Part shown: in pieces, positions 5,962 to 33,022 of the stretch
How the letters are laid out: each line of letters begins with the position of its first letter
How positions within the stretch are numbered: position 1 is the stretch's first letter
DNA from: Chloroflexota bacterium
GTDB lineage: Bacteria; Chloroflexota; Anaerolineae; J036; Brachytrichaceae
Assembly (NCBI GenBank): GCA_021788625.1
Contig: JAJYKL010000004.1
Span: forward strand, 38,273-102,272
Length of the DNA: 64,000 nt
Direction of reading: 5' to 3'
The notes under the pieces: generated by a model
What the model was told of the DNA's origin: nothing
The model's input: the letters and a program-made list of their open reading frames with translations, nothing else
Databases searched by the model: none
Translations under genes and position numbers: made by a program

Positions 5962-7410
5962 ATGCCGCACCCGGTTATTAGTTGGGAGCACGAGGCACCT
6001 GTGCCGAACGATTACCAGTTTAACGATTTTCTCTGCAATCATGACGGCCGACTGTATTACGAAGATCTTGACCTGACACAGTTGCTCATCGCAGGGCGGA
6101 AAGATCAGGGTATGGGCCACACGCTGAGCAGCCCGCTGGAGGTTGTATACCTGCCGAAGGTCCGCCAGAAAGTGACGCAGCTCAGAGGTATATTCGCCGA
6201 AGCAGCACAGGCGCTGGGTTACACGGGGCAGTTCCATTACGCCTACGCTTCGAAAGCGAATACCGCCGAAGAAGTGGTGCAGGTTGCACTTGAGGCTGGT
6301 GCGCACTACGAAATGTCATCGCAGGTGGACACGGTCATCGCACAAATGATGCAGGCGGCTGGCCAATTACCTGAAGGTCGCATGGTTATCGCCAATGGAT
6401 TCAAGCCGGCTGGCAGTAGTTACGCGCGCAGTCTGGTGCGCATGAAGCAGGTGCATGATAACCTCATCCCTGTTTTAGAGGACCTGGTGGAGTTGGCTCC
6501 TTTCATCGAATCGGGTGTGCCGTTTGATGTGGGCTTGCGGTTGAAGTGTTATGGACATCGCAACCATGGCACCAAAACCCCTGTCGATGCTGGCAACTCC
6601 CGCTTCGGACTGACAGTGGAGGACCTGACTAAAGCAGCAGATATTATTGCCGCAGCACCTACGCTAAACCTGAAGCTCTTCCACGCCATGATCGGAAGCC
6701 AGATCGCGAGCGAACATGAGTTCGTCAGTGCGCTGAAACCTGCCATAGACCTGTATGCCCGTCTGCGCCAGCGCCATTCCACGCTGCACATTTTTGACTT
6801 TGGTGGCGGCGTACCGGCACCGATGACACTTAACTTCCATTTCGACTATGTGGAGTTTGCGCATCTGTTGATGACCTCGCTGCTGGAATCGTGCGGGCAT
6901 TACAACGTGCCGGTGCCCGATATCATGGGCGAAATGGGTCGCTATACCACTACCGAACATGGCGTGCACTGCTTTAAGGTGCTGATGGTTAAGAACAACG
7001 GATCCACGCTGCCCTGGTATATCATCGATGGTTCCATCATGACGTCGTTCCCCGATGTTTGGGCTTTGGGCGAGCATTTTATCGTCCTGCCGCTCAATCA
7101 CCTTGACAGACCCTTTCAGCGGGTGCAGTTGGGTGGCCTGACCTGTGATAGCGATGACATCTACCCACCCAAGATGAGTCTTTCACCGCTCTACCTGCCC
7201 GTCGAGACGAAAGACCTGTACATCGGCTTTTTCAGTGTGGGAGCCTATCAAGAGATGCTCGGAGGCGTGCGCGGCAGCAAGCATTGTATGCTGCCCGAAG
7301 CGTGCGAACTGGTGGTGGATCGTAATGGCAGCGGAGCTTATCAATTCCATACCATTCCAGGCCAGACGGCTAATGACGTGTTACGCAATCTGGGTTACCC
7401 GGTGAGTTGA
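5962..7410 (+). CDS. PLP-dependent fold-type III decarboxylase, arginine decarboxylase-like
   Basis: FHYAYASKANTAEEVV (PLP lysine region), GFKPAGSSYARSLV, HIFDFGGGVP, GEMGRYTTTEHGVHCFKV; RBS-like GGAGGAG upstream. Confidence 0.8.
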   Translation: MPHPVISWEHEAPVPNDYQFNDFLCNHDGRLYYEDLDLTQLLIAGRKDQGMGHTLSSPLEVVYLPKVRQKVTQLRGIFAEAAQALGYTGQFHYAYASKANTAEEVVQVALEAGAHYEMSSQVDTVIAQMMQAAGQLPEGRMVIANGFKPAGSSYARSLVRMKQVHDNLIPVLEDLVELAPFIESGVPFDVGLRLKCYGHRNHGTKTPVDAGNSRFGLTVEDLTKAADIIAAAPTLNLKLFHAMIGSQIASEHEFVSALKPAIDLYARLRQRHSTLHIFDFGGGVPAPMTLNFHFDYVEFAHLLMTSLLESCGHYNVPVPDIMGEMGRYTTTEHGVHCFKVLMVKNNGSTLPWYIIDGSIMTSFPDVWALGEHFIVLPLNHLDRPFQRVQLGGLTCDSDDIYPPKMSLSPLYLPVETKDLYIGFFSVGAYQEMLGGVRGSKHCMLPEACELVVDRNGSGAYQFHTIPGQTANDVLRNLGYPVS

Positions 7411-7453: not shown

Positions 7454-8329
7454 GTGATCTATATGAACCGTGATCAACTCAGCAGGGGGATGCAGGAGCA
7501 GGTACGCAAGTCCCTGCTGTCATACTCCATCTTTCGACCGGAGAGTGCAGCGGTCATCGCACTGACGCTTATTCTGGTCACGCTGTCGGTGCTGGGATTG
7601 TCATGGTTTCCCGGCACCTGGTGGATGTGGCTCGCCTTTGGCTTAGTGGGAGAGGGGCTGGTAGTTTTTAGCAGCCTGCGTGATCCCCGGTTTAACCAGC
7701 AGGTGATGGACGAAGTGTTCCACGAACGATTTGACGTGCGTCGTTTGCACAATCCCGACCTGCGCCAGAAAGTGAACAAGGCTCTTGATTACCGTGAGCA
7801 AATCGCTCAAGAGATTGACCGTAAGAAAGATGACGTACTGGATGAATACCTGCGCGATACGGCGCACGGATTGGAAGATTGGATTGCTCAGGTATATCGC
7901 CTGGCGCTGGGCCTGGATGACGATAAAGATGCCATGATCGCACGCGAGTTGCAGTCAGTGCAACAGGAAATCACGCGTTACAAGGCGGAACTTGTCAGGC
8001 AGAAGGGCACTGCAGTTCAGGAGGATATCGAAAAAACCATTAGCCTCAAACAAGCGCAACAGACCGCATTGAGCAGCCTGCGCGACACGCGCGAGAAAGC
8101 GCGCTTGCAGCTGGAAGACACACTCTCGGCCATCAGTACCGTCTACACTCAGGTGGTGCTGCTCGGTTCGAAAGACGTCAATAGTGCACAGGCACAGCGC
8201 CTGCAGCAAGATATGGTTGACCAGGTGCAGGCACTGCAAGACACCAGCGATGCAATGGATGAGGTGTATCAGACATCGGGGATGCAACCAGCAGTGTCAA
8301 AGACCACTGGAAAGACAATAAACAAGTGA
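7454..8329 (+). CDS. Membrane protein with two predicted TM helices and a long C-terminal coiled coil; unknown function
   Basis: TMs AAVIALTLILVTLSVLGLSWF and WWMWLAFGLVGEGLVVF followed by ~200 aa charged helical region (LRQKVNKALDYREQIAQEIDRKKDDVLDEYL...). Confidence 0.7.
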   Translation: MIYMNRDQLSRGMQEQVRKSLLSYSIFRPESAAVIALTLILVTLSVLGLSWFPGTWWMWLAFGLVGEGLVVFSSLRDPRFNQQVMDEVFHERFDVRRLHNPDLRQKVNKALDYREQIAQEIDRKKDDVLDEYLRDTAHGLEDWIAQVYRLALGLDDDKDAMIARELQSVQQEITRYKAELVRQKGTAVQEDIEKTISLKQAQQTALSSLRDTREKARLQLEDTLSAISTVYTQVVLLGSKDVNSAQAQRLQQDMVDQVQALQDTSDAMDEVYQTSGMQPAVSKTTGKTINK

Positions 8330-8356
8330 ACGGGTGGGGGATGATCGCCCCATGCC

Positions 8357-9997
8357 GTGTATGAGGTAATGACGATGCAAAGGCTTAGTTCCACCCGAAC
8401 CATCTTTTTCCTGATCATTGGCGTCGCTCTGATCGTGGTATGCGTTGCTTTGGCGAATACCTTTATCGTAAATAAACTGACTGCTACGCCCACTGCTGCA
8501 CCGCTCGTGGTGTCGTCAGCGGGTGCACAAACGCCGCAGGTGAACCTGCAGTCACCCGCGCCGGTGTTCGCCCCAGGCACCAACACTAAGGATGGCCTGC
8601 CTACGTATATCTGCGGAGCTGATTCGTTTGGCAGTTACTTTACGCTGCAGCAGATGCAAATGTCCGGCAAGGATGTAGCACATGGATTCCACCTGGGGAT
8701 AGTGCCATTCCTGCTGGACAATAACACCGCCTACGACGTCTCGGAGGAACAGCGCACAGCCCTGTTAAGTGCGGGCAAGTGGAATTGTCTGCTCACCACG
8801 CTGGATTCGGTAGCCCTCTCCAGCCCGGGCATCATTACAGCCATCATCGATGAGAGTGCAGGCGCGGATCAGTTATGGGGACGTGACATAAAAACAATAA
8901 ATGACCTGAAAGGCAAGCGCATCGCTTTTTCGCGCGGCAGCGTGAGTGAGTACTTCGTCGATTACACCCTCTCCATCGCGCGCCTGAACCCGCATACCGA
9001 CGTGACGCTTATGCCGGAAGATACAGTCGACGATGCCGTGAAAGCATTCGTCGATAGGAAAGCGGATGCTGTGGCTGCCTGGGAGCCAAACATCTATGAT
9101 GCCAAACAAGCTGGCGGCACACCGCTCCTGAGCTCTGCCCAGATGCGCATCGTGATTGATGTGATCGTGACCTCACGCCAGTCCATCACCACGCAGGCTG
9201 ACCTGGTGCAGAAGTTCCACGACGCCTGGTTCGATACGCTCAAAGTACAGGAAGACAACTTTGACAGTGCGGCCGCCCAGATCGCGAAATGGGGCCACAA
9301 CGACTGGTCTGGCATTAGTGTAGCGACCGCCAGCCAGGACCTGAAGACAGCATTGCAAAGCGTGGCACAGGCTGATCTGGGTGACAACGCTTACGTGATG
9401 AACAACACTGCGCCACTCATAAACCGTCTGGCGACCGCACGGCGGGTATGGGCAGCCTCAGGTGAGACAGTCCCGAATGACAATGTAGCCGACCTGGTGA
9501 ACCCCGGCTACGTTACGCGCTCGGCTGCTCAGGCATCGCTGCAAGCCAATGGTAAACCGGTAAATGATACGTTCTCCATGTCCACAAAACTGGACCTGAG
9601 TGGAGTGAACACGACCGATGCGGCGACGCTCGCGGTACTGCCGTGCCGTTCGTTCACATTCGTTCCAGAGTCCACGTCACTGACGATCGAATCGCGCCGC
9701 ATTCTGGATGATTGCGTGGTACCCACCATGCAACAGAGCGTTGGGTTATTCCTGCGTGTCAAGGGGTCGGCAGCATGGCCAGGACCTCAAGGTACGTACA
9801 AGCAACAGGACATTCTGTCGATCGCTCAGGCGCGCGCACAGGCGGTGGTGGATTATCTTGTTTCACAGGGCATCGATCGCAGCCGTTTTATCGTTGAAGC
9901 AACACTACCCCCTAAAGATCATTGGGAGACCGAAGACCCCGACATCCAGGCCCAGGATCGCTATGTGGAGCTGACACTGCTCACCGTTGGGCGGTAG
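8357..9997 (+). CDS. Membrane-anchored NMT1/PstS-like substrate-binding domain fused to C-terminal OmpA-like peptidoglycan-binding domain
   Basis: N-terminal TM (TIFFLIIGVALIVVCVALANTF); SBP segment LKGKRIAFSRGSVSEYFVDYTLSIARLNPHTDVTLMPEDTVDDAVKAFVDRKADAVAAWEP; OmpA motif DILSIAQARAQAVVDYLVSQGIDRSRFIVEA. Confidence 0.8.
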   Translation: MYEVMTMQRLSSTRTIFFLIIGVALIVVCVALANTFIVNKLTATPTAAPLVVSSAGAQTPQVNLQSPAPVFAPGTNTKDGLPTYICGADSFGSYFTLQQMQMSGKDVAHGFHLGIVPFLLDNNTAYDVSEEQRTALLSAGKWNCLLTTLDSVALSSPGIITAIIDESAGADQLWGRDIKTINDLKGKRIAFSRGSVSEYFVDYTLSIARLNPHTDVTLMPEDTVDDAVKAFVDRKADAVAAWEPNIYDAKQAGGTPLLSSAQMRIVIDVIVTSRQSITTQADLVQKFHDAWFDTLKVQEDNFDSAAAQIAKWGHNDWSGISVATASQDLKTALQSVAQADLGDNAYVMNNTAPLINRLATARRVWAASGETVPNDNVADLVNPGYVTRSAAQASLQANGKPVNDTFSMSTKLDLSGVNTTDAATLAVLPCRSFTFVPESTSLTIESRRILDDCVVPTMQQSVGLFLRVKGSAAWPGPQGTYKQQDILSIAQARAQAVVDYLVSQGIDRSRFIVEATLPPKDHWETEDPDIQAQDRYVELTLLTVGR

Positions 9998-10085
9998 ACA
10001 GTTTATATGGCCGGCGTCAGGCTCCATGGTTACATCGTTCATGGCTGCCGATATGGACAGCCTGTTTGATGAAGGTGGGTGAAGC

Positions 10086-11747
10086 ATGCTACGAAAAGCT
10101 TCAGGCTTGCTCAGAATTCTTTCATTCGTCACGGTGACAGGCTTATTGGCAACGGCATGCGAGATGAGTGCTGGCGATGTGCCGAGTAATGCGGCAGTTG
10201 TCAAGGTGGTTGCCAATACCAACCTGACTCCTTGGCTGAAGGGGACTGTTGACCAATTCAACCAGGCAAGCGTAAAGATCAGCAATGGCCAGCAAGCGTA
10301 CGTTCAACTGCAGTCGGTTGATGCAGGCCAGGCGGCGGCTGACATGACGAGTGGGACATCTTTACCCGGCCTGTGGATCCCCGACGACGATGCCTGGGTA
10401 GCGGTGCTGGCGAGCAAGGGGCAGGCGGCGTTCCAGGGAGATTGCCAGAGTGTGGCCAAGAGTCCACTGGTGATCGCTATATGGCGCCCGATTGCCGAGG
10501 CGCTGGGTTGGCCAGGTCGTGCGCTGGGCTGGTTGGATCTAGGCACCCTGGCAGCCGACCCTTCGTCGTGGGCCTATTACACGGGTGGCCAATACGGGGC
10601 AACACTACGCGTTGGTCACACCCACCCAGGGCTTTCGGGTAGCGGCAGCGATACCCTCCTGGCTGTGGTGCATGCAGCCAGGAACAAGACGTCAGCCTTG
10701 ACGGCTGCTGACATCAACGACCCCGTTGTACAGGCTTCTGTAACAGCCTTTGAAGGCACGGTGGCTACCTTCAGCCAGTCGACCGAGCAGCTCGGACAAA
10801 CGATGGAAACACGAGGGATCAAGTACCTGAGCGCGGCCATCATGTACGAAAGCACGGTTGTGAATGACGGGGGTGGCGGTGCAGATGGACTGGTAGCGGT
10901 ATACCCTTACGAGGGCACCTTCATGTCCACCAACCCAGCCTGTGTGAATGGTACGGCGAGTGCTCCGGTGCAGGAAGCGGCGCGAGCTTTTCGCGATTTC
11001 CTGCTTAAGCCTCAAGCACAACGAGCTGCGCTAGCTGCCGGGTTGCGTCCCGTGAATAATAGCGTGCCTCTCAGCTCGCCTATTGACGCTGCTCACGGTG
11101 TGGACCCCGCGCAACCAAAGGTGCTTTTTAGCGCCCCGAATGCCGAGTCGGTGTTGGCGGTGGGGCAGTTATGGCAGGCTGCGCGTAAAGCAGTCAACCT
11201 GTTTATGCTGATCGATACGTCGGGCAGCATGCAGGGCGAAAAGATCGACGCTGTGCGTAACGCAGCAGAGCAATTTGTCAAGCAGATGGGTGATAGCGAT
11301 TACCTGACACTCATTACCTTTGCCAGCCGCACTAATGTATTGATCGATCACCGCAAAGTGAGTGACGTCCGTGACAGCGCGGTGCAGCAGATCGATGGAA
11401 TACAGGCTGGCGGTAACACCACACTCTACGACACGATTGGGGAGGCGGCAGACCTGATCGCCAAAACGAACAGTTCGCAGACCAGTAATGCGATCGTATT
11501 GCTGACAGATGGCCAGGACACATCCAGTTCTCACTATGAGTTTAACCAGGACCTGATCGATAAAGCCGCTGCGAACAATACCACCGTGTTCACTATTGCT
11601 TACGGAAGCGATGCAGACACAAATGTGCTATCTCAACTGGCCAGCCAGGGGCGCGGCCAGTTTTTCCAGGGTGATCAGGCTAACATTGCCAGCATTTACC
11701 AGCAGATGTCGGCAGCCTTTGGTGGATCCGTTGGCATCGGACGATAA
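10086..11747 (+). CDS. Lipoprotein with substrate-binding domain fused to C-terminal von Willebrand factor A (VWA) domain
   Basis: Lipobox-like LLATAC; SBP region; VWA MIDAS NLFMLIDTSGSMQGEKIDAVRNAAEQFV with downstream NAIVLLTDGQDTSS. Confidence 0.85.
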   Translation: MLRKASGLLRILSFVTVTGLLATACEMSAGDVPSNAAVVKVVANTNLTPWLKGTVDQFNQASVKISNGQQAYVQLQSVDAGQAAADMTSGTSLPGLWIPDDDAWVAVLASKGQAAFQGDCQSVAKSPLVIAIWRPIAEALGWPGRALGWLDLGTLAADPSSWAYYTGGQYGATLRVGHTHPGLSGSGSDTLLAVVHAARNKTSALTAADINDPVVQASVTAFEGTVATFSQSTEQLGQTMETRGIKYLSAAIMYESTVVNDGGGGADGLVAVYPYEGTFMSTNPACVNGTASAPVQEAARAFRDFLLKPQAQRAALAAGLRPVNNSVPLSSPIDAAHGVDPAQPKVLFSAPNAESVLAVGQLWQAARKAVNLFMLIDTSGSMQGEKIDAVRNAAEQFVKQMGDSDYLTLITFASRTNVLIDHRKVSDVRDSAVQQIDGIQAGGNTTLYDTIGEAADLIAKTNSSQTSNAIVLLTDGQDTSSSHYEFNQDLIDKAAANNTTVFTIAYGSDADTNVLSQLASQGRGQFFQGDQANIASIYQQMSAAFGGSVGIGR

Positions 11748-27496: not shown

Positions 27497-30400
27497 ATGA
27501 TTACAGCCGGTCAAGTCCTCCAAAATCGTTATCGTATCGATGCCCTGCTCGGAAAGGGCGGTATGGGTGCTGTTTTTAAGGCGTTTGATCTTTCCCTGCA
27601 TCGCACAGTCGCCATCAAACTGCTCGCTCCGCACCTGGTGTGGGAGACGGATTTTGTAGAGCGTTTCATGCGTGAAGCGCGTGCGGCTGCTAACCTGCGC
27701 CACCCAGCCATCATCGATATTCATGATGTGGGGCAAGATGGCGATGACCATTTTTTTATCATGGCGTACCTATCGGGTGGCACGCTCAAAGCCAGGATTC
27801 AGGCGAGTGGACACCTGCCACTGGATGAGGTACTACGCATCCTGCATCCCATTTCTGATGCACTGGATTATGCGCATGCCGAAGGACTAATACACCGTGA
27901 TGTAAAACCCGCTAACGTGATGTTCGATCAACGGGGTCAGCCGGTATTGACCGACTTCGGGATCGTTAAGGCAGCGCAAGAGACCAAGCTCACAGCGACG
28001 GGCACCTCTTTGGGCACGCCACAGTACATGGCGCCTGAGCAGGTACTGGGTAAAGGGGTCGATGGGCGGAGCGATCAATATGCCCTGGGCATCATCGCAT
28101 ATGAATTATTGACCGGGAAGGTTCCATTCGATGGTGAATCTACAACTGTCATCCTGCATAAACAAGTGTACGAGCCTCCCCCGTTGATATGCTCCCTTGC
28201 ACCCGGGCTACCTCCCGCTGTGGACGATGTGATAAGACGTGTGCTGGCCAAGACACCCGCAGATCGCTATAACTCGTGCAGTGAATTTGTAACCAGCCTC
28301 GAGCATGCACTCAAGCCGACTACGCTAAAGATTGCACCCACACCGCCACCCGACATTGAATCAATGCTCTTAGCGAACACAGCGCCTGAAACGCCTGCAC
28401 CAATTGCTACGTTCGTGCCAGAGAGCATTGATCATCCTGACATTAAGAAGCAGTTCGAGCCGGACAAGAGCCATGATGACCTGGCAGGGGCGACCATCCC
28501 TTTGGATGCTAACAGGCAACCTGTTGTGGAACACGAGCATCAGGGGGCCAAGCAACACGAGCGCGACGTGGTTGAGCCACCAGCGCAGGATGGAAGCACG
28601 AAATCATTGGCCGAAACGCCGGGTCCTTCTGCGGTCGAGCCGCCGCGTCAAGAGGCCACGAGTGAGTCACATCCCGCGCTTCGGAAAACCTCGCTCAGCA
28701 GACGTGCAGTCCTCATTGGCATAACCGGTCTCGCAGCGGGTGGAACGCTTTACTGGCTGCTGGCGAACCGGGTGCCGTCAACTCAACCACCATCCACCGA
28801 AACGGAGGTACCGAGCGAGCCGACTCCTGAACCGACCTCGACGAAAGAGACTGAAGCTCCCACCGCCACGGGTTCCACGAGTGGAGATGTTGCTGAAGGC
28901 GAGATCAAGGTGGCGATCATTGCTCCTCTCTCGGGTTCGGAAACTCCGCTGGGCGAGTCGACACGTAATGGAGCGTTACTAGCGATTGATCAGTGGAACT
29001 CCCGTGGTGGTGTATTGGGACGGCGCATTCAGCCTATCGTAGCGGATGGGCAGTGCGCCGCTGACGCTGCCTTAAATGCTGCACGCAAGGTGGTCGAGCA
29101 GGATGGCGTGAAGTTCATAATAGGAGAAGTATGCTCCAATGCGTCCATATCAATATCGGACTATGCCACCTCCATGAAGGTCATACAGATCAGCCCTGCC
29201 TCCACGAATCCTGCAGTCACGGTTGATCCCAGTGGTACGGTGAAGAATTATGTGTTCCGCACCTGTTATACAAATGCCTTGGAAGGCACTGCCGCTGCCT
29301 GGTTTGCTCTGGACAACCTGAAAGCCAGAACAGCTTTCATTTTCGATGAGCGCGATAACACGTACATGATCGGTCTGGCCGACTATTTTGAGAAGGCTTT
29401 CAGTAATGGAGGTGGTCGGGTAGTTGGCAGGACGAGTTATGCGGGCGGCGATACTGACTTCACGGCTAATCTGGACGAGATTGACCATGTGAAACCTGAT
29501 GTAATCTATCTGCCTGCTGACGCAAGCGTCGCGAACCTGATGACCAGGCAGGCTAAGGGACGCAGCATGACGATACCTTTCGTGGGCAGCGAAGGCTGGT
29601 ACACACCAGACCTGGACCTTGGGGCGGCTGAAAACAATTTCTTCACTGCCCATTACGCAAACGATGATCCCCGGTCCGAGGTACAGGATTTCGTTCACGC
29701 GTTCACCCAGAAATACCGCGATGATAAGCAGCAACCACTGATGCCGAATGAGTGGGCTGCTTTGGGTTATGATGCGGCTAGCATGCTATTCCAGGCGATC
29801 GGTGAAGCGGGCAACGACGATCCAGAGGTGGTGAAAGAAAACTTCGTTAAGATTGAATATACGGGAGTTACCGGCGTCATGCAGTTTGATGATGCACATA
29901 ATCCGGTAAAGAGCATCGTGATTATGCATGTGCGGAATGGGATGATCTCGTATGATACTTCCATAGGCCCACACCCTGTCGCGTCACCTGGTGGCAACGG
30001 AGAGCAGGCTCTCACATCACTCAAGGTAGGCCTGTTGGCTGATGCGGGTGATATGACCCAGCAGTCCTACAACCGGGTTGCCTGGAGTGCAATCCAGAGG
30101 GCAGCGCAAGAGTTCAGTTTTATAGTCAGCAATATGGAGGCAAAGCAACCTGCCGACTATGAGATCATCATCGACCAGTTCGCAGCCGATCATTGCGGCG
30201 TAGTCATTGCTGCTGGCTTCAGGATGAGCGATGCCGTTGCCGTGAAAGCGATCCAATATCCAGATATCCAGTTCGCGATTGTTGACCATGCCTATTACCC
30301 GACTAGAGGCGCCTCCGTCTGCGACGAGACCAAGAAAGACTGTTACGCCGATGGAGGACTGAATAACGTGACCAGCTTGATGTTCAGGGAGGACCAGGCA

Positions 30401-30982
30401 GGTTTCCTGGCAGGCGTGGTCGCTGCGGGTGTATCCATGAAAGGCATGGTATGCACGGTTGCTGGCATGGAAATCCCGCCGGTGCAACGGTTTGTAATGG
30501 GCTATGAAAATGGCGCAAGGTGGATAAAACCTGATGTGAAAGTACTGCACATCTACGCGCCTTCGTTTACTGACCCAGCCTGGGGTACTAAGGCGGGTAA
30601 CGACATGATCCAGCAGGGCTGCGATGTGGTGTTCGGAGCAGGAGGCGAAACCGGCGACGGTGGCTTGATGGCTGCCATGCAGGCCGGTGTGGCCGCGATC
30701 GGGGTGGATGTCGACCAGTACGAAACCTTTCCTAACGTGAAAGAGGCACTGATTACAAGTGCAATGAAGAATGTAGAAGCTGCGGTGTACGAGTACCTTA
30801 AGAGTGTCCATGAGCAAGCCAATCGGGCTGGTATCGCCATGGCAGATCTTCGGAACGGCGGAATTGGTCTCGCTCCTTACCATGACTGGGAATCGAAAGT
30901 GCCTACACTGGTGAAGGCGAAAGTAAAAGAAGCCATCGATGGGTTAATAACCGGCCAGCTATCGACTGGTGTTCCCTTTTAA
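27497..30982 (+). CDS. Transmembrane Ser/Thr protein kinase with two extracellular periplasmic-binding domains: LivJ-type and BMP/PnrA-like
   Basis: Kinase: GKGGMGAVFKAFD, HRDVKPANVMFD, DFGI, MAPEQ. Single TM ~28699-28773. LivJ-like: EIKVAIIAPLSGSETPLGESTRNGALLAIDQWNSRGGVLGRRIQPIVADGQC (~28908-29985). BMP-like: LKVGLLADAGDMTQQSYNRVAWSAIQRA...FREDQAGFLAGVVAAGVS...VGVDVDQYETFP-type core (~30024-30979). Confidence 0.88.
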   Translation: MITAGQVLQNRYRIDALLGKGGMGAVFKAFDLSLHRTVAIKLLAPHLVWETDFVERFMREARAAANLRHPAIIDIHDVGQDGDDHFFIMAYLSGGTLKARIQASGHLPLDEVLRILHPISDALDYAHAEGLIHRDVKPANVMFDQRGQPVLTDFGIVKAAQETKLTATGTSLGTPQYMAPEQVLGKGVDGRSDQYALGIIAYELLTGKVPFDGESTTVILHKQVYEPPPLICSLAPGLPPAVDDVIRRVLAKTPADRYNSCSEFVTSLEHALKPTTLKIAPTPPPDIESMLLANTAPETPAPIATFVPESIDHPDIKKQFEPDKSHDDLAGATIPLDANRQPVVEHEHQGAKQHERDVVEPPAQDGSTKSLAETPGPSAVEPPRQEATSESHPALRKTSLSRRAVLIGITGLAAGGTLYWLLANRVPSTQPPSTETEVPSEPTPEPTSTKETEAPTATGSTSGDVAEGEIKVAIIAPLSGSETPLGESTRNGALLAIDQWNSRGGVLGRRIQPIVADGQCAADAALNAARKVVEQDGVKFIIGEVCSNASISISDYATSMKVIQISPASTNPAVTVDPSGTVKNYVFRTCYTNALEGTAAAWFALDNLKARTAFIFDERDNTYMIGLADYFEKAFSNGGGRVVGRTSYAGGDTDFTANLDEIDHVKPDVIYLPADASVANLMTRQAKGRSMTIPFVGSEGWYTPDLDLGAAENNFFTAHYANDDPRSEVQDFVHAFTQKYRDDKQQPLMPNEWAALGYDAASMLFQAIGEAGNDDPEVVKENFVKIEYTGVTGVMQFDDAHNPVKSIVIMHVRNGMISYDTSIGPHPVASPGGNGEQALTSLKVGLLADAGDMTQQSYNRVAWSAIQRAAQEFSFIVSNMEAKQPADYEIIIDQFAADHCGVVIAAGFRMSDAVAVKAIQYPDIQFAIVDHAYYPTRGASVCDETKKDCYADGGLNNVTSLMFREDQAGFLAGVVAAGVSMKGMVCTVAGMEIPPVQRFVMGYENGARWIKPDVKVLHIYAPSFTDPAWGTKAGNDMIQQGCDVVFGAGGETGDGGLMAAMQAGVAAIGVDVDQYETFPNVKEALITSAMKNVEAAVYEYLKSVHEQANRAGIAMADLRNGGIGLAPYHDWESKVPTLVKAKVKEAIDGLITGQLSTGVPF

Positions 30983-31006: not shown

Positions 31007-33022
31007 ATGCTGGCCGCTGGCCAAGTCCTAGCCAATCGTTATCGCATTGACTCTCAACTTGGGAAAGGCGGTATGGGCGCGGTGTACCAGGCATATGACC
31101 TGACACTCGGCCGTACGGTGGCGATTAAGCTGCTAGCCCCTCAACTGGCTTGGGAAACGGAATTCGTCGAGCGTTTCCAGCGTGAAGCCCATTCCACTGC
31201 CAGTCTGCACCACCCGAACATCATCGACGTGCACGATGTGGGTCACGAAGGTGATAACTACTACCTCGTCATGGCCAACCTGCCAGGCGGGACGCTCAAG
31301 CAGAGACTTTCGAATAAAGGTCATCTGCCACCAGACGAGGTGATTGGCATCCTGCGACCTATCGCTGCGGCGTTGGATTACGCCCATGCGAAGGGGCTGG
31401 TGCACCGTGACGTAAAGCCCGCCAACGTATTATTCGACGAGCTGGGTACACCCGTTCTGACAGACTTTGGCATCGTCAAAACCGCCCAAGACACAAAGCT
31501 TACAGCGACGGGAGCATCCATCGGCACGCCGCAGTATATGGCACCTGAACAGGTGTTGGGTAAAGTAGTAGATGGCCGCACGGATCAATATGCTCTGGGC
31601 GTCATTGCGTATGAGTTACTGACGGGGCGGGTTCCGTTTGCAGGTGATACAACTACCACGATCCTCTACAAGCAGGTTCATGAGACACCTCCACCCGTTC
31701 GCTCGTTTGCTTCGCATCTACCAGCAGGCGTAAACGGCGTATTGAGACGCGTGTTGGAGAAATCACCGGACAAACGCTACCGAAATTGCGCTGATTTCGT
31801 GGCTGATCTGGAACGAGCGCTCAAGCTCCCGAGAACCAGGGAACAGGTGCTGCCGGAGCCTAAAGTTGATACGACAATTGTGTTGCCCGACGCGACGCTG
31901 CCAATGTCTCGCCCACAATCAGGCCAGGCAGGCATAGTTCCTGACGGCTCATTACAGGCGGCACCACACAACCTTAAGAACAGAGGATTGACGCGCAGAG
32001 CTTTCCTGATTGCGACGGCGGGCATCGCAGTAGGAGGAGGTGTGGGATTATTCCTGATCATCCGCCCAGTCAGACCAACTCCGGGCGTTACCCCAACTCT
32101 GCCAGCGACAGATCAGCAGAACAATACACCCAGCACCACCAGCATGTCGGAGCCAACGGCAACCCTGATGCCAACAGATACCTCCAAACCGACCGAAACC
32201 ACTGCAGCCCAGCCAACCCCGCTGGTTCAGGTCACACGGGTGAATGACCATGCTGTCATGCTCCCCCTCGCAGCAGGTGTAGCACTGGAATTCTTACGTA
32301 TACCAGCCGGGGCATTCCTGATGGGCAGTGCAGACACGGACAAGGATGCTCTGGCAAATGAGAAGCCGCAGTCGACCGTGTTGCTGGGTGAATACTGGAT
32401 CGGCAGGTATGAGGTGACGAACGCACAGTTCCGGGTATTCGTCCAGGCGTCTGGTTACCGGACAACGGCGGAGCAGAATGATTCGTCAGGTGCGAACTGG
32501 CAGCATCCGGGTGGTGCTGGCAGTGATCTGACCGGCAAAGACAATTATCCTGTGGTACAGGTTAGCTGGGATGATGCAGTGGCTTTTAGTACATGGGCAG
32601 TTAAGCAGACCGGGTATGAGATTCGACTGCCAAGTGAAGCCGAGTGGGAGAAGGCTGCCCGTGGTACGGACGGGAGATTGTACCCCTGGGGAAATAACGT
32701 GCCAGGCCTTACTCTCGCAAATGTTGGCATGAATGTTGGAGCTACCACACCTGTAGGCAAGTACAGCCCGCAGGGTGACAGCCCATATGGGGTGGCAGAC
32801 ATGGCAGGCAATGTCTCGGAGTGGACGAGTAGCCTGTATATGCCCTATCCCTATAAGGCTAACGATGGGCGGGAGAACCAGCAGAGCCGTGACCTGAGGG
32901 TGATAAGAGGGGGGAACTATTTTCTGGGTGCGAAGATTGCCCGCTGTGCGGCACGGAGCGGAGGAGATCCGACAAACTCCAGTAGTTATTACGGCTTCCG
33001 AATCGCTGTGACCGTCATTTAG
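31007..33022 (+). CDS. Transmembrane Ser/Thr protein kinase with C-terminal FGE-sulfatase (SUMF1-like) domain
   Basis: Kinase: LGKGGMGAVYQAYD, HRDVKPANVLFDE, DFGI, MAPEQ. TM ~31990-32070. FGE-like: FLRIPAGAFLMGSADTDKDALANEKPQ, VSWDDAVAFSTWA, RLPSEAEWEKAARGTDGRLYPWGN, ADMAGNVSEWTS, RVIRGGNYFLGAKIARCAARSGGDPTNSSSYYGFRI. Confidence 0.9.
   Translation: MLAAGQVLANRYRIDSQLGKGGMGAVYQAYDLTLGRTVAIKLLAPQLAWETEFVERFQREAHSTASLHHPNIIDVHDVGHEGDNYYLVMANLPGGTLKQRLSNKGHLPPDEVIGILRPIAAALDYAHAKGLVHRDVKPANVLFDELGTPVLTDFGIVKTAQDTKLTATGASIGTPQYMAPEQVLGKVVDGRTDQYALGVIAYELLTGRVPFAGDTTTTILYKQVHETPPPVRSFASHLPAGVNGVLRRVLEKSPDKRYRNCADFVADLERALKLPRTREQVLPEPKVDTTIVLPDATLPMSRPQSGQAGIVPDGSLQAAPHNLKNRGLTRRAFLIATAGIAVGGGVGLFLIIRPVRPTPGVTPTLPATDQQNNTPSTTSMSEPTATLMPTDTSKPTETTAAQPTPLVQVTRVNDHAVMLPLAAGVALEFLRIPAGAFLMGSADTDKDALANEKPQSTVLLGEYWIGRYEVTNAQFRVFVQASGYRTTAEQNDSSGANWQHPGGAGSDLTGKDNYPVVQVSWDDAVAFSTWAVKQTGYEIRLPSEAEWEKAARGTDGRLYPWGNNVPGLTLANVGMNVGATTPVGKYSPQGDSPYGVADMAGNVSEWTSSLYMPYPYKANDGRENQQSRDLRVIRGGNYFLGAKIARCAARSGGDPTNSSSYYGFRIAVTVI

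Follow-up and report, generated by a model that had tools for sequence, protein, structure and literature searches.

Why would a bacterium encode two substrate-binding proteins (SBPs) side by side with no importer gene near them? The question is raised by a 64,000-nucleotide stretch of a draft Chloroflexota genome (the window, by which we mean this whole stretch), in which three open reading frames follow each other on the + strand with intergenic gaps of 27 and 88 nt. This three-gene run, first proposed from the letters of the DNA alone (the sequence-only reading), was confirmed at the positions listed here. The boundary originally drawn at 7454 is too narrow, since it misses a conserved upstream gene (dec).

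5962–7410, + strand: dec, PLP-dependent arginine-decarboxylase-like enzyme, 482 aa (PDB, NCBIfam, neighbourhood)
7454–8329, + strand: A, two-TM hairpin and helical coiled-coil protein (predicted structure, pspA-adjacent relatives)
7538–7681, + strand: membrane hairpin of A, helices 26–43 and 53–73 (predicted helices, hydropathy)
8357–9997, + strand: B, TM-anchored SBP-OmpA protein (Pfam NMT1 and OmpA; model pLDDT 85.6)
8390–8482, + strand: N-terminal transmembrane helix of B (hydropathy; model helix 6–36)
8600–9409, + strand: NMT1/TauA/SsuA-type substrate-binding domain of B (Pfam, predicted fold)
9623–9994, + strand: OmpA-like domain of B, motif Asp replaced by Ala467, Arg487 kept (Pfam, alignments)
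9989–9994, + strand: C-terminal Gly-Arg of B (62 of 62 orthologs)
10086–11747, + strand: C, lipoprotein SBP-VWA (Pfam, alignments)
10149–10160, + strand: lipobox ATAC of C with Cys25 (sequence; family alignment)
10200–11048, + strand: SBP_bac_11 substrate-binding domain of C (Pfam)
11196–11696, + strand: VWA domain of C with intact MIDAS, D377, S379, S381, T445 and D475 (Pfam, alignments)
11739–11744, + strand: C-terminal Gly-Arg of C, within the Gly-rich tail AFGGSVGIGR (48 of 48 orthologs)

Alignments place the probable starts of A and B at ATG 7463 and ATG 8375. Comparison with same-genus orthologs gave pN/pS values of 0.18–0.34 for A, B and C, which shows that all three encode real, selected proteins. 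The main window genes from 719 to 22231 were scanned and include no ABC permease or ATPase, so the original remark that neither is nearby holds here. A defence system was ruled out by zero PADLOC matches.

By their sequence features, the jointly encoded B and C are both binding proteins that face outward, one held by a transmembrane anchor and the other as a lipoprotein. Protein C matches SBP_bac_11 (E 1.7e-16) and VWA (E 3.5e-21), and its signal peptide carries a lipobox (LATAC) the cysteine of which is invariant in 9 family members and conserved in at least 90% of 45 sequences, which marks C as a lipoprotein by sequence. The MIDAS residues (DxSGS...T...D) conform to the DxSxS...T...D pattern and are invariant in 45 sequences. 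The description of C as a lipoprotein with an SBP and a MIDAS-intact VWA domain is therefore well founded. A single-sequence scan of the genome contigs with C returned zero matches.

Protein B had been described as a TM-anchored NMT1/PstS-like protein with an OmpA terminus. The anchor, which is conserved among orthologs, the NMT1 domain (Pfam E 1e-8) and the OmpA domain stand; the likeness to PstS does not, as the modelled fold matches TauA/SsuA binding proteins (E 2e-12). The OmpA match is weak (E 7e-5, below the curated cut-off; 27.2 and just at the cut-off in another search). Canonical OmpA-like domains contact the diaminopimelate of peptidoglycan through a motif Asp. When the motif positions of B are assigned by hand alignment to OmpA, the Arg of the peptidoglycan-binding Asp/Arg pair (Arg487) is invariant among orthologs and the Asp is lost, with an equally invariant Ala467 in its place. 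This substitution makes ordinary peptidoglycan binding by B unlikely and renders the epithet "wall-anchored" doubtful. The motifs WEP and DESA in the SBP domain are invariant as well, which suggests that B keeps a ligand pocket.

These features bear on the possibility that B and C form a non-signalling scaffold that joins membrane, wall and surface, with the SBP folds as rigid spacers. OmpA-like and VWA domains often serve for adhesion or anchoring, and two SBPs without a transporter would suit such a role. The loss of the OmpA Asp from all orthologs argues against canonical wall binding, the probable ligand pocket of B against a mere spacer, and the recurrent pspA linkage described below against a purely structural function. 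We consider such a tether rather improbable.

Gene A was modelled with nine helices including the membrane hairpin (pLDDT 79), in agreement with its first description as a 2-TM/coiled-coil protein. The motif FR.E.A at the start of TM1 is invariant, and the charge pattern suggests that both ends of the hairpin lie in the cytoplasm. No Pfam, PDB or NCBIfam family could be assigned to A from the libraries searched (LTXXQ gave a weak match, E 0.005), and a structural search with the model produced no significant fold match.

To what extent is this arrangement conserved? A profile-based scan of GTDB genomes provided 62 Chloroflexota loci with a clear B; the relatives of the window genome are mostly Anaerolineae-type MAGs. 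C lies directly after B in 50 of the 51 loci with room downstream, dec lies 5' of B in 39 of 58 testable loci, and within the window's own family every contig that is long enough shows A, B and C in this order. Co-occurrence in related genomes, the point on which the sequence-only reading had staked its case, is thus established. Outside the genus the flanks of A-B-C mostly change, and the placement of A 5' of B is limited to the own family and a handful of others.

A clustering of the neighbouring genes revealed dec as a further conserved partner. Its nearest PDB entries are biosynthetic arginine decarboxylases, the NCBIfam match is SpeA/LysA-like, and the motifs YASKAN (PLP-Lys) and CDSDD (Cys-Asp) are conserved as in arginine decarboxylases, although dec is shorter than SpeA. 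The product is a probable polyamine-forming metabolic partner. In L052 and L066 methyltransferase genes stand between dec and B, and in L054 a ThuA-like gene precedes B; neither type is a conserved part of the cluster.

The frequent position of dec upstream of B and its kinship with arginine decarboxylases raise the possibility that arginine-derived amines, as products of dec, are the ligands that the SBPs sense or bind, so that the cluster would control polyamine balance and not envelope stress. About a third of the testable loci lack dec, however, and several family genomes (G006, G013, G018, G022, G009 and G015) have B and C without a close dec ortholog. Two loci (L190 and L197) contain dec without the B-C cluster. 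Hence dec is not strictly required for the cluster. Since the fold of B also belongs to the sulfonate/nitrate class, we regard a dedicated polyamine system as very unlikely.

A different connection emerges from the genes next to C and A. pspA follows C directly in only 6 of 41 testable loci (L047, L048, L049, L060, L062 and L087), and in all of these except L048 gene A follows pspA, so that A stands 3' of C instead of 5' of B. The identity of PspA was established by Pfam PF04012 for three of the five C-pspA-A loci (E 1e-15 to 4e-17), and a PspA profile built from the cluster group matches all five as well as L048. Stand-alone copies of A adjoin pspA in five of five genomes examined (G011, G012, G046, G076 and the window genome, G000, where a second A copy lies beside pspA on contig C3). 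Two further loci (L171 and L173) show the order pspA-SBP-SBP/VWA-A; L192 is similar, with pspA at a slightly greater distance upstream of SBP-SBP/VWA-A. NfeD is the next gene after A in L193. In two Chloroflexota, SBP-SBP/VWA-A is followed by a Peripla_BP_6 protein (L192, 9056–10435; L173, 4528–5685).

Within the window cluster itself no PspA (PF04012) was found, so the cluster as it stands here lacks this element of a PSP system; the PspA matches of this genome lie outside the window, on contigs C3 and C172. A tree of A separates the upstream-of-B clade (support 100/99) from the PspA-linked A genes, which identifies the window A as a dedicated paralogue. Because it forms a clade of its own and has no pspA beside it, the window A may no longer work with PspA. 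A-like proteins of Chloroflexia came from an iterated profile that may have drifted, and serve as support only.

Given that the A family sits beside pspA, and that pspA lies within the cluster in several relatives, the original idea of an envelope-stress function is supported by way of PspA; the route through TelA on which it also drew is not supported for this lineage. We assign about even chances to the reading that dec-A-B-C encodes a PspA-coupled envelope-sensing complex. Such a complex could work as follows. B and C would associate outside the cell, aided by the MIDAS metal site of C and possibly also by the Gly-Arg tails common to both. Ligand binding or envelope damage would alter this assembly, and A, with its hairpin ends and coiled coil in the cytoplasm, would relay the change to a PspA partner, which in this genome would be the one encoded elsewhere beside the second A. 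As the cytoplasmic effector, PspA would remodel or stabilise the membrane, while dec might tune polyamines, which are themselves membrane-stabilising.

The sequence-only reading named TelA (PF05816) as a neighbour of related SBP/OmpA and VWA genes in other bacteria. For this lineage the link is not supported: TelA was found in none of 29 own-family genomes, which argues against a TelA/Ter-linked system here and led us to reject TelA as a partner in this lineage. Among 300 Chloroflexota only 22 genomes scored above the TelA cut-off, and a C-type match lay close to TelA in just 1 of 20 TelA loci. For distant proteobacterial relatives the link is real. Vibrio plasmids (L032 and L033, including pAM7) encode in one run SBP-OmpA, vWA, SBP-OmpA, a 2-TM coiled-coil protein, TelA, an SBP, a permease and an ABC ATPase. 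On plasmids of Sphaerotilus (L038) and Variovorax (L201), TelA adjoins SBP-VWA and a small protein, which in Sphaerotilus has two TM helices. All these loci resemble the Chloroflexota cluster in that a single run of genes unites an SBP with a 2-TM or small protein and with either SBP-VWA or the pair of SBP-OmpA and vWA. They differ in that TelA occupies the place that PspA has in Chloroflexota, and in that their 2-TM proteins are not detectably homologous to A. A comparison of A with its 2-TM counterparts in Vibrio, Sphaerotilus and Streptomyces detected no homology, and the likeness is therefore treated as analogy. In the actinobacterium Miltoncostaea, SBP-VWA is followed by a detectable relative of A (E 5e-18, HHalign probability 97%). 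Judging from this handful of loci, TelA and PspA seem to fill the same slot in different lineages.

A locus of Candidatus Uhrbacteria (L105, 6885–15543) has the order SBP-OmpA, vWA, SBP-OmpA, 2-TM-like protein, SBP, permease and ATPase, which is similar to that of the Vibrio plasmids without TelA. Since both versions carry an ABC permease and ATPase, the SBPs of B and C may descend from a transport-linked module. They could even still serve one, by capturing substrate for an NMT1-type ABC importer encoded elsewhere; the combination of genes in these two loci and the TauA/SsuA fold of B are what such orphan binding proteins would lead us to expect. Real importers of the NMT1/TauA/SsuA type share this binding fold, but they differ from the window cluster, which has no permease or ATPase and in which the binding domain is fused to a TM anchor and an OmpA-like domain. 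Moreover, one mixed cluster of neighbours (14 loci, scattered positions) aside, neither permease nor ATPase occurs among the conserved genes that most often flank B in the 62 Chloroflexota loci, and even in the importer-bearing loci vWA and a 2-TM protein are present, joined in Vibrio by TelA. Substrate capture for a distant importer thus appears unlikely, and a PspA-coupled sensor remains our preferred reading.

The most specific feature shared by B and C is their exact -Gly-Arg terminus, without exception in the cluster loci (L040 to L101). Their C-terminal domains are mutually unrelated. Among 412 other ORFs of the neighbourhoods just 2 share it, and within the window the ending is confined to B and C. 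SBP-VWA relatives that occur without B mostly have FF or YF at the C-terminus, and the outlying relatives of B also have termini other than Gly-Arg. The glycine-rich tail of C with its Gly-Arg end looks like a flexible, exposed end. We know of no explanation for these tails; the simplest idea is a common docking or processing signal. A bolder proposal, to which we give perhaps one chance in five, is that the tails of B and C form a docking or tethered-ligand code for a common receptor, from which strain on the envelope frees them and so switches a PspA-linked response. The receptor in this case would perhaps be the binding domains of B and C, each recognising the tail of the other.

Parts of this picture have precedents. 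pspA operons that include polyamine-metabolism genes have been described, some with an ABC ATPase/permease and a PBPB-OmpA protein, and other pspA contexts contain YqiJ/YuaF-type proteins and 2-TM partners (Ravi et al. 2024, PMC11237479). The systems presented in that article are thus similar with respect to 2-TM membrane partners, polyamine genes and a PBPB-OmpA protein near PspA, and dissimilar in that the A family belongs to no searched library and the window cluster lacks pspA. Searches of the text of the article gave no match for vWA or von Willebrand, TelA or arginine decarboxylase. Measured against this text, SBP-OmpA and polyamine genes near pspA are known, and the association with vWA, TelA and arginine decarboxylase appears to be new. 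A literature search on SBP-VWA with TelA found no paper in the collection covered.

How a signal travels from outside the cell to PspA without the proteobacterial PspB and PspC is largely an open question. The cluster offers two binding proteins as candidate outer sensors and A as a candidate membrane relay, and the similar genomic slots of TelA and PspA across phyla suggest a role for TelA, a protein that is still poorly understood. The -Gly-Arg tails provide a sharp feature by which these ideas can be tested.

Further downstream in the window, a single protein of 1161 aa (27497–30982) combines a Ser/Thr protein kinase with Peripla_BP_6 and PnrA-like Bmp domains, apparently a further case of SBPs used as sensors. 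Directly 3' of this gene lies a fusion of a Ser/Thr kinase with an FGE-sulfatase-type domain (31007–33022).
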